64,000 nucleotides of DNA from Tubulanus polymorphus. Taxonomy: Eukaryota; Nemertea; Palaeonemertea; Tubulaniformes; Tubulanidae. Made by a program: the position numbers and the translations under genes. The notes under the pieces were generated by a model. The model was not told where the DNA came from, did not search any database, and saw nothing but the letters and a program-made list of their open reading frames with translations. This document shows positions 35,013 through 42,089 of the stretch, in pieces. Position 1 is the stretch's first letter, and the number at the start of each line of letters is the position of its first letter. The DNA is taken from positions 5,182,501 to 5,246,500 of the forward strand of contig NC_134028.1 of NCBI RefSeq assembly GCF_964204645.1, given 5' to 3'.

Positions 35013-35058
35013 GGAGTTGCTATATTAAACTTAACAAATTTCAAAATCAATCATATTT

Positions 35059-35340
35059 AACCCCTGTGAAGCTGGCTCCCGGTTCCCGGTTCCTTATTCG
35101 GCTCCCGATTCAAAATGCTATTGAACCGGGAGCCGAATCGGGAACCGGGAACCGGGAGCCGGCTACTGGTTCAGCTCCCGATTCAAAATGCTTTTGAACC
35201 GGGAGCCGAATCGGGAACCGGGAACCGGGAGCCGGCTACTGGTTCAGCTCCCGATTCAAAATGCTTTTGAACCGGGAGCCGAATCGGGAACCGGGAACCG
35301 GGAGCCGGCTACTGGTTCAGCTCCCGATTCAAAATGTGAA
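35059..35340 (+). repeat. Left terminal arm: 73-bp tandem repeats
   Basis: Repeat starts (GAACCGGGAGCCGAATCGGG) at 35123, 35196 and 35269 give a 73-bp period. Each unit holds short inverted segments (GAACCGGGAGCCGAATCGGG against CCCGATTCGGCTCCCGGTTC), so arms can fold on themselves as well as with the distal arm. The open frames here (35188-35548) merely result from the repeat. Confidence 0.9.
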
Positions 35341-35505
35341 GCTGGCTACTTATTCGCCAGGTGGCGCTGGTATACACTATGCCGTAGTCCAGACATTTTA
35401 CGTAACTATGTCTACTCTGCTGATAAACAAACTCGACCTCGACCTTGACAACAAATCGCCAGGTGATGGCGCGAGCCAATCCAGACGTCTAAACACGATT
35501 GCGTA
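35340..35505 (+). repeat. Subterminal module copy A of the foldback element
   Basis: Begins TGTGAAGCTGGCTACTTATTCG, then CGCCAGGTGGCGCTGGTAT, TACGTAACTATGTCT, a Leu/Asp-rich-looking CTCGACCTCGACC block, and AATCCAGACGTCTAAACACG. It recurs at 38650, 39570 (inverted), 40430 (inverted) and 40732 (inverted). Confidence 0.75.
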
Positions 35506-35626
35506 TGCGACCGCGAGAGCGGTCAGCTGTAGCTTCACTTCAGGATAGAACGATAACCACACTCAAACGTGGTGAACGGATAACAACAAATTTTTTAGAT
35601 TCAATAAATAAATTCTTGTTTTTACG

Positions 35627-35750
35627 TATATATATATATATATATATATATATATATATATATATATATATATATATATATATATATATATATATATATA
35701 TATATATATATATATATATATATATATATATATATATATATATATATATA
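35627..35750. repeat. (TA)n microsatellite
   Basis: About 124 bp of pure alternating TA next to the hairpin-forming block. The length is probably polymorphic and may be inexact in assembly. Confidence 0.95.
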
Positions 35751-36058
35751 TTCGTATTAAAAGTATTGAGAGCAATCTGATCGAATAGTATTAAAACATG
35801 TGTGTAACTGAAGCTTTTATATATATATATATATATATATATATATATATATATATATATATATATATATATATATATATATATATATATATATATATAT
35901 ATATATATATATATATATATATATATATATATATATATATATATATATATATATATATATATATATATATATATATATATATATATATAAAAGCTTCAGT
36001 TACACACATGTTTTAATACTATTCGATCAGATTGCTCTCAATACTTTTAATACGAATA
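35749..36058. repeat. Perfect 310-bp palindrome around a (TA)n core
   Basis: The sequence from TTCGTATTAAAAG (35751) to CTTTTAATACGAA (36056) equals its own reverse complement, with a centre at about 35903. About 67 bp of unique sequence on each side (including GAGAGCAATCTGATCGAATA and its complement) flank a TA run of about 170 bp. The exact symmetry means either a very young inverted duplication, a site copied through a foldback, or a sequencing/assembly foldback artefact. Confidence 0.9.
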
Positions 36059-39790: not shown

Positions 39791-39894
39791 GTTCCCGGTT
39801 GCCGATTCGGCTCCCGATTGAAAATGATTTTCAAATATGTTGACAATATTTCAATACACATTTCAATAGCCAACTTCATATCGCTGACAAAGGT

Positions 39895-40030
39895 AAACCA
39901 ATTAACTAACCCGAATTAAGCATTTTCCATTAGAATTATCACCTAAACCGGGCCCAGGGCAGAAGAACTAGTAACATATAACAAATCATGCAGTACATCT
40001 TTCTCGTATCAGACCGATGATGCTCACATT
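39895..40030. repeat. Internal direct repeat, second copy
   Basis: Counterpart of 39265-39420; see that entry for the shared blocks. Divergence is substantial outside the shared core. Confidence 0.6.
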
Positions 40031-40429
40031 GCAGTATTCTCCACTATTACATTCCCCAGAATTGACGTCATCCGCGTCTCTGTAGGCAGACAAAATGAAA
40101 TTAGGTCACCGGCGTCTCTGTAGTCAACGAGCAACAGCTGACGCTCACATCGCGCAAATGTTTGTTTTCATCATCGCGCGCAGTGACGTCACGCGGAAAG
40201 TCCAAACTTAATGGTAGAAAAGTCTACCTAAACTTTATCGTATCGGCACGAAATCTATTCGTTAACACAGATCAGACCATCCTCTTTCAATCCATACCAC
40301 TCAACGCGTAATCGAAGCCACACGAACGGAGATTACGCGCTACAAAGTTAATACGCTATGGCTTAGCCGCTTATAGTATAGAATATAGTTGCATAGTAAC
40401 TGTGTATATTGAAGTCACACGCGTGTTGT

Positions 40430-40560
40430 TAATTCAGACGTCTCGATTAGCCTGGTGGCCGAGGTCAGGTTGCACTCATTTCAGCAGACATAGTTACGTA
40501 ATTATGTTTACCTGCTGTCCGCAATAGAGTCGAATCGAATAAGTAGCCAGCTTCACATTT
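40430..40560 (-). repeat. Subterminal module copy D
   Basis: Inverted copy: TTCAGACGTCTCGATTAGCC, GGTGGCCGAGGTCAGGTTGC, ACATAGTTACGTAATTATGT, GCAATAGAGTCGAATCGAAT, AAGTAGCCAGCTTCACA. It is nearly identical to copy E. Confidence 0.75.
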
Positions 40561-41139
40561 TGAATCGGGAGCTGAACCAGTAGCCGGCTCCCGGTTCCCG
40601 ATTCGGCTCCCGGTTCAAAATGGTTTTGAACCGGGAACCGGGAACCAGTAGCCGGCTCCCGGTTCCCGGTTCCCGATTCGGCTCCCGATTCAAAATGATT
40701 TTGAATCGGGAGGAAATCGTCACACGCGTGGTGTTAATTCAGACGTCTCGATTAGCCTGGTGGCCGAGGTCAAGGTTGCACTCATTTCAGCAGACATAGT
40801 TACGTAATTATGTTTACCTGCTGTCCGCAATAGAGTCGAATCGAATAAGTAGCCAGCTTCACATTTTGAATCGGGAGCTGAACCAGTAGCCGGCTCCCGG
40901 TTCCCGGTTCCCGATTCGGCTCCCGGTTCAAAAGCATTTTGAATCGGGAGCTGAACCAGTAGCCGGCTCCCGGTTCCCGGTTCCCGATTCGGCTCCCGGT
41001 TCAAAAGCATTTTGAATCGGGAGCTGAACCAGTAGCCGGCTCCCGGTTCCCGGTTCCCGATTCGGCTCCCGGTTCAATAGCATTTTGAATCGGGAGCCGA
41101 ATAAGGAACCGGGAACCGGGAGCCAGCTTCACAGGGGTT
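40552..41139 (-). repeat. Right terminal arm: 73-bp tandem repeats, inverted
   Basis: The same unit as the left arm in opposite orientation. Unit boundaries fall near 40936, 41009 and 41080, with a further partly rearranged block at 40552-40710. The outermost 150 bases mirror the left arm exactly. A subterminal module (40732-40868) splits the array. Confidence 0.9.
40732..40868 (-). repeat. Subterminal module copy E
   Basis: Almost the same sequence as copy D (one extra A in GAGGTCAAGG), so D plus its repeat block and E plus its block form a recent direct duplication of about 300 bp in the right arm. Confidence 0.75.
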
Positions 41140-42089
41140 CATATTTATTCTCATACAACAATTATACAAAATGCCAGGAGTGCTCGAGGAATTATAATGT
41201 AAGCTCCTCAAACACGTGGACTTTCAAAAACAACTAGTCCAACCACCCTACGAGCAATTATCTAAATTAGATAATTGCTCGTAGAACCACCATAGGCGTA
41301 TAAACTATAAACGAGAGTTTATACGGCCATGGTCCAAACATAGACTCAAAAACAAAAAAGTCTATTGCCCAACCATGGGCTCAAATTGTCCATGGCCCCC
41401 GCACTAAAACCAGAGATAACCCTGGCCAAATACTCTGGAAAGCGTAGGATTAAGCAATCAATCTGATTTATATTTTTACATCATTTCATTTCACAATTAT
41501 TAACTTTCAGCTTATTTTCTCAAATTTTAGTAGTAATTTTATTTCTATTAAAAATGTACTATGTATGAAATTGTACTAACTTTAAAACCACAAAAGTTAC
41601 ATGTAAGGTATTTATAAGTCTTTATATATGATACATTTCCACAACAGCTGATTTATACAATTTGCATCAATAGGAAAATAACAAAAATACACAAAGAATT
41701 GTAAACTTTGATCCATAACACTGAAAATTGGACTAGTCTGGAAGTCGTAAGATTATGAATTTGACAATTCATGAGGTCAATATAACCGACACTTTGTTAT
41801 TTTTCATGAAATATGAACCTATCATGTCAACTTTTCAAATGACATCTCAATTATCAAGAAAAATCTCAACTATATTCGATTAGGGCCTTAATAAATCAGT
41901 GTTTTATGATCGATTGACATGAACATGTCGTTTTATCCCCACAACAATAATTATACCTAAATGACAGGTATTTATGTACTCGAGGAATATATCATCTATC
42001 AGACTGGTTTGAAAAAGGTGATAAGTAAAAAAAATCAATACTTTACTACAGAAGTCCGATATTGTCTTTGTTGCTCCTGGATCTCAGTG

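Follow-up and report, generated by a model that had tools for sequence, protein, structure and literature searches.

Foldback elements of Drosophila melanogaster (FB, or FB-NOF) have inverted arms made of short tandem repeats and generate 9-bp target duplications. In the current study we describe such an element, and its family in the genome, from the nemertean Tubulanus polymorphus. It lies at positions 35060–41138 (6079 bp) of a 64-kb stretch of contig NC_134028.1 (5,182,501 to 5,246,500, forward strand; hereafter the window) and is like FB, as described, in arm build and duplication length. The element is a member of a new family of a known foldback kind, the FB/Tm1/Tetris type, and it is a non-autonomous DNA transposon, most likely moved in trans by a transposase of the Mutator superfamily (Mutator-like elements, MULE).

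A Mutator placement has been given for most foldback elements (PMC4079207), and the duplication range given for the MULE superfamily, 8–11 bp (PMC6446971), includes the 9 bp found here. Tm1, a Mutator/Foldback family of root-knot nematodes, is described with composite inverted arms containing a variable number of tandem motif units, target duplications of 8–10 bp, for the most part 9 bp, in 45 of 53 elements, forms like miniature inverted-repeat transposable elements alongside larger ones, and a target consensus given as absent (PMC3169594); in these respects it is like our family. Unlike it, Tm1 most commonly has 14-bp units and end motifs CGGTTAA/CCTACCC, neither of which characterizes the present copies, with their near-palindromic 73-bp unit and ends ACCCCTGTGAAGC; moreover, Tm1 copies are reported to encode a Phantom-like transposase (PMC3169594), and none was found in the family here. 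Tetris of Drosophila virilis is, as described, an apparently non-autonomous foldback with tandem repeats within its arms, 8–10 bp duplications, a variable non-coding middle and no autonomous copy found, all as here, and was assigned to Mutator by its authors from the duplication length (PMC4079207). Its arm repeats (TIR-220) have expanded into satellites (PMC4079207), whereas our family has 73-bp units and short forms that are 115-bp hairpins.

Two further groups share features with the family. Rehavkus elements, given from arthropod and annelid hosts, have 9-bp duplications, arms of 26–400 bp and a minisatellite before the 3′ arm; Phantom elements have 8–10 bp duplications where these are given, and arms of 18–613 bp or none (PMC6446971). 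Both groups are defined there by their transposases, and our family carries none. Galileo has long, internally repetitive arms of variable length, like those here, but duplications of 7 bp rather than 9 (PMC3573991). The end sequence of our family was not found in the literature (a comparison that did not extend to Repbase or Dfam), and no matching family was present among the literature matches listed for foldback/Mutator-like elements, Rehavkus, Phantom and MULE.

Anatomy, copies and target duplication

The left and right arms are 100% complementary over 298 nt (35059–35356 and 40842–41139). The outermost A/T pair of this match is part of the target duplication, thus leaving an element arm of 297 bp. 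A preliminary description had recognized an intact-looking foldback element of about 6.1 kb with exact inverted ends. This is borne out, except that the ends had been misread by one base on each side. The features are as follows (coordinates in the window, strand, identity).

35051–35059, no strand: left 9-bp target-site duplication TCATATTTA, from the letters (9/9 match) and uninterrupted repeat copies
35060–35356, plus: outer 297 bp of the left arm, repeated exactly in inverted orientation at 40842–41138
35097–35336, plus: 73-bp tandem units, 3.3 copies
35336–35347, plus: internal end-motif core GTGAAGCTGGCT
35357–35560, plus: left subterminal segment
35742–36065, no strand: (TA)n-rich palindrome within the element, with two arms of 162 nt that are 98% alike
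36066–39570, no strand: non-coding interior, common to other long paired copies at ~95–99% identity
38344–38622, no strand: ~280-bp high-copy repeat embedded in the interior, many genome copies at 91–95%
39740–39751, minus: internal end-motif core
40414–40712, minus: inner copy of the duplicated right-side module, 93.5% to 40719–41023
40545–40556, minus: internal end-motif core
40842–41138, minus: right arm, outer 297 bp, containing an internal end-motif core at 40851–40862
40862–41101, minus: mirrored 73-bp tandem units, 3.3 copies, 98%
41139–41147, no strand: right 9-bp target-site duplication TCATATTTA

Long inverted arms built mostly of tandem repeats, together with a variable or non-coding middle domain, are features of the foldback class, and both are present. 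As had been noted, the arms are mirrored 73-bp arrays (3.3 copies each at 98%, Tandem Repeats Finder), and the unit matches its own reverse complement imperfectly (79–85% over 52–68 bp). Beyond the outer 297 bp, the right side departs from a simple mirror of the left, with a direct duplication of ~300 bp (40414–40712 and 40719–41023), and the core GTGAAGCTGGCT has, in addition to the two ends, one further copy on the left and three on the right. For window 35345–35600, 40 genome matches were scored (of 815 candidates); a family end lies within 1 kb of 32 of them and within 20 kb of 37. The interior (36066–39570) also has more diverged matches elsewhere, down to 75%, and the assembled length of the (TA)n palindrome may be uncertain. 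No transposase-like frame was found among the stop-to-stop frames of the element, in agreement with the preliminary description; apart from a 151-aa translation of the (TA)n stretch, none exceeds 117 aa.

The window element is one of dozens of copies dispersed in the genome (267.8 Mb, 77 contigs). A search with its outer 151 bp returned 197 matches, a copy often accounting for several of them. A 17-bp end pattern, with two mismatches at most, matched at 84 sites in forward and 66 in reverse orientation, compared with 4 and 8 sites for the reversed control. The 104 ends used throughout this work comprise 100 listed of these 150 end-pattern matches and four from the 151-bp search, and pair counts drawn from them are lower bounds. 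They form at least 35 adjacent convergent pairs, and both ends were read in 32 of the 35, leaving out C8:3024612, C6:18138224 and C6:17976406.

Comparison of these copies shows that the duplication is 9 bp long. The window copy is flanked by TCATATTTA (35051–35059 and 41139–41147). CATATTT, which the preliminary description had taken for a 7-bp duplication, does stand on both sides, but is only the core of this 9-bp sequence. First, the family ends are fixed across copies as ACCCCTGTGAAGC...GCTTCACAGGGGT, and ACCCCTGTGAAGC is nearly constant while the base just outside it varies (the base outside ACCCCTGTG is A, C, G or T depending on the copy), which argues for 9 bp rather than 7. Second, the flanks agree at length 9 and not at 7. 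A perfect duplication of 9 bp is found in 17 of the 32 copies; at length 8 there are two perfect matches, both in A-rich flanks, and at 6, 7, 10, 11 or 12 there are none. Agreement at 8 or 9 of the 9 positions is seen in 23 copies, a level that none of 62,053 mismatched pairings reached. Third, the host sequence of the element is itself a dispersed interspersed repeat (window 34960–35059 and 41148–41230), and the joined flanks with one TCATATTTA match other genome sites straight through (40 matches scored of 530 candidates). Six uninterrupted repeat copies were fetched and aligned; five keep a single TCATATTTA, and the sixth has a 2-bp deletion within it. These sites support 9 bp over 7 independently of the copy comparison. 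The end points of genome copies and the empty sites were the two tests by which the preliminary description had proposed its reading might be refuted, and both came out against 7 bp.

Sizes, arm similarity and hairpin folding

The copies span a ladder of sizes. Fifteen pairs are of 387 bp or less: 115 bp (five), 143, 169, 176, 188 (four), 235, 261 and 387 bp, and ten of them fit 115+73n exactly. Larger pairs measure 980 bp to 1.7 kb (six) and 6.1–11.8 kb (eleven), followed by 19.6, 32.9 and 42.8 kb, the last two being adjacent ends that may not represent single elements. Several long copies contain other inserts. Among the copies compared, the long interior stretch closest to that of the window copy is 2.8 kb at 98.6%, in the C3:16.00 Mb copy. 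The short forms might derive from the long ones. Since the 73-bp units are near-palindromic, the two arms would also be partly direct repeats of each other, and recombination or slippage between them could remove the interior and whole units, giving hairpins of 115, 188 and 261 bp.

The arms of the window copy are 99.0% alike over 300 bp, with the first 297 bp identical. This identity, which the preliminary description had linked to recent insertion or homogenization, stands over its full length but is not special to this copy, as a window arm matches an arm of another copy at 99.5% (gaps not counted). Of 16 copies, four have arms that resemble each other more than they do any other arm, and ten have arms closer than the mean between-copy value (gaps not counted). 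The identical arms fit a young family and do not require gene conversion; some homogenization of arms within copies may occur.

Two 115-bp copies fold end to end into near-perfect hairpins (z −18.5 and −23.5). The two window arms, each taken over its outer 150 bp, also fold on their own (z −14.3 and −13.9), whereas two control stretches do not fold (z 0.45 and 0.59). A different account of the family, which we hold as a tentative one with the odds against it, takes the near-palindromic 73-bp unit as the working part, the family cycling, by steps of 73 bp, between hairpins of 115 bp and carriers of several kilobases. As the outer 150 bp of each arm folds in much the way that a whole 115-bp element does, a single unit may be mobile as a hairpin transposon; two such units may mobilize the DNA between them (composite mobilization), and recombination of the palindromic arms may return large elements to unit hairpins.

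Which transposase moves the family

The preferred reading, movement in trans by a MULE transposase, is drawn from the 9-bp duplications and the composite tandem-repeat arms, which together point to a Phantom- or Rehavkus-like member of that superfamily. A transposase made elsewhere would recognize the end motif, and perhaps also the internal cores and the repeated units; it would excise the element and reinsert it with a 9-bp stagger. The preliminary description had proposed a search for copies encoding a P-type or Mutator-type transposase. The genome was searched with domain models for MULE (PF10551), P-type (PF21787) and IS1595/Merlin (PF12762) transposases, and no P-type or MULE match was placed between convergent family ends.

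MULE domains are present in the genome, with 56 matches to PF10551, several in open frames of 444–833 aa; the match nearest to a family end is 9,954 bp away, outside the element. Thirty MULE loci were fetched with flanks of ~1.5 kb, not all of them followed to their ends. The 13-bp end motif (up to two mismatches) was not found in 28 of the 30, and the other two, L049 and L050, have one 2-mismatch string each, inside or beside the MULE domain match. Five loci (L036, L037, L039, L041 and L042), with open frames of 200–444 aa, have arms containing 16-bp tandem units (CCACTAGTCCGGGGGT and similar). At L037 and L042, inspection by eye suggests flanking duplications of 8 bp. Polinton-type polymerase pieces lie within ~1.5 kb of the MULE domain matches at L052 (C7:13330777) and L040 (C12:11439389), through either chance nesting or a true association.

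Two candidate links to MULE loci were rejected. The locus L054 was considered as a partner as its flank matched two long copies, but this flank belongs to a high-copy repeat (3209 first-look candidates). Non-canonical ends in the neighbourhood of MULE genes were considered through the pattern ACCCCTGTGAAGCV, which has six matches; two of the six do resemble family ends, but the one that lies 14 kb from a MULE match is unlike a family end.

Several observations weigh against the MULE assignment. None of the 56 PF10551 matches lies between convergent family ends, although the family may be wholly non-autonomous, and the MULE loci with visible ends carry end sequences unlike those of the foldback family. 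Nine of the 32 copies fall below 8 of 9 matching flank positions: L062 has seven, L072 six, and L064 five, yet in its poly-A flank all eight positions agree at length 8, while six (L009, L020, L021, L059, L071 and L073) have no duplication. L023 (poly-A) and L075 (repetitive flank), which are counted among the 23 agreeing copies, are little informative. Taken alone, one 73-bp unit shows only moderate folding (z −3.6). Finally, Merlin elements likewise make duplications of 8–9 bp, and the genome has 43 matches to PF12762, several in frames of 283–357 aa. With regard to the unmatched flanks, ectopic recombination between copies could be their source; chimeric copies of Galileo are described with unlike arms and unmatched flanking duplications (PMC3573991).

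Movement by a Merlin/IS1595-type transposase would account for the duplication length and has these domains available in the genome, but we consider it improbable. None of the 43 matches is located between convergent ends, the nearest being 100,269 bp from one, and no Merlin foldback family was present among the literature matches listed, none of the searches having been aimed at Merlin.

Far less probable still is a Galileo-type foldback of the P superfamily, with 7-bp duplications and a THAP/P-type transposase as its mover, the likeness drawn in the preliminary description. Galileo does have long repeat-built arms (PMC3573991), and 20 matches to the P-type RNase-H domain (PF21787) occur, some in frames of 627–773 aa. 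Against it, no copy has a perfect duplication at 7 bp, compared with 17 at 9, and the uninterrupted repeat copies concur; likewise, convergent ends enclose none of the 20 matches, and the nearest is separated from an end by 24,509 bp.

Equally doubtful is the notion that a Polinton-like provirus is the autonomous partner, with the foldback arms as its terminal repeats. It arises from the 19.6-kb copy (C5:17075862–17095416), which carries the ends of the family, is flanked by a perfect duplication of 9 bp, TGTGAATGT, and contains integrase-, packaging-ATPase- and polymerase-like frames. Polymerase-like frames in two paired copies had made a Polinton a candidate partner. However, the provirus terminates in ends of its own, AGTAATAGG...CCTATTACT, and is flanked by its own 6-bp repeat, ACCGGG, in the middle of a 73-bp unit, and the uninterrupted form of this target, GAACCGGGAGCCGAATC, is present in neighbouring units. 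Its own ends and duplication exclude the candidate and indicate a separate, later, nested insertion. The 6-bp duplication and AG...CT ends, which belong to the insert and not to the foldback family, agree with the 6-bp duplications and AG/CT-type end motifs described in print for Mavericks, and the insert is Polinton/Maverick-like.

The provirus (L076 and L027; C5:17075763–17095716) has a 1356-aa open frame, an integrase-like frame that a single in-frame stop interrupts, a capsid-like frame and others. The A32-type packaging ATPase matches PF04665 above the Pfam cut-off (E 3.2e-11), whereas the matches for integrase rve (E 0.0012), a chromodomain (5.2e-5) and a capsid protein (0.0081) do not reach theirs. 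In Pfam, the 1356-aa frame has only endonuclease VII and zinc-finger matches and no polymerase match. We label it polymerase-like because it is 75% identical over 175 aa to a frame of L075 that matches organellar/viral polymerase B.

Finally, that the arms are a chance or assembly palindrome and no product of transposition has a negligible probability: the (TA)n palindrome at 35742–36065 is presumably of a stretch type prone to assembly error and 6 of 32 copies lack a duplication, but the arms recur at dozens of dispersed sites, where the copies share their ends and have 9-bp duplications, and both filled and uninterrupted repeat sites are seen.

Other observations and significance

In the foldback-ended copy L075 (C2:12932415–12940785), two diverged gene pieces that resemble polymerase B are oppositely oriented, and one of them has an intein-like segment (PF14890 below and PF14528 above the cut-off). 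The C9:8.11 Mb copy (L020) has an insert at element positions 317–5563 that is absent from the other compared copies; its frames of 860 and 415 aa resemble a non-LTR (long terminal repeat) retrotransposon, as judged from motifs. In the window, palindromic sequence was seen by eye after 41250, and exon-like frames occur at 6531–7175 and 55299–55751, which we take to resemble calcium-activated nucleotidase and dynein heavy chain, respectively.

The family is of interest in three respects. A single base at each end can shift the superfamily call if only one copy is used to read the duplication. The size ladder in one genome, from 115-bp hairpins to 11.8 kb, the target sites both filled and uninterrupted, and the near-palindromic 73-bp unit make the family a useful case for the growth and shrinkage of foldback arms. 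Lastly, a foldback family with an unusually clear anatomy is added to a group thought to belong to Mutator.

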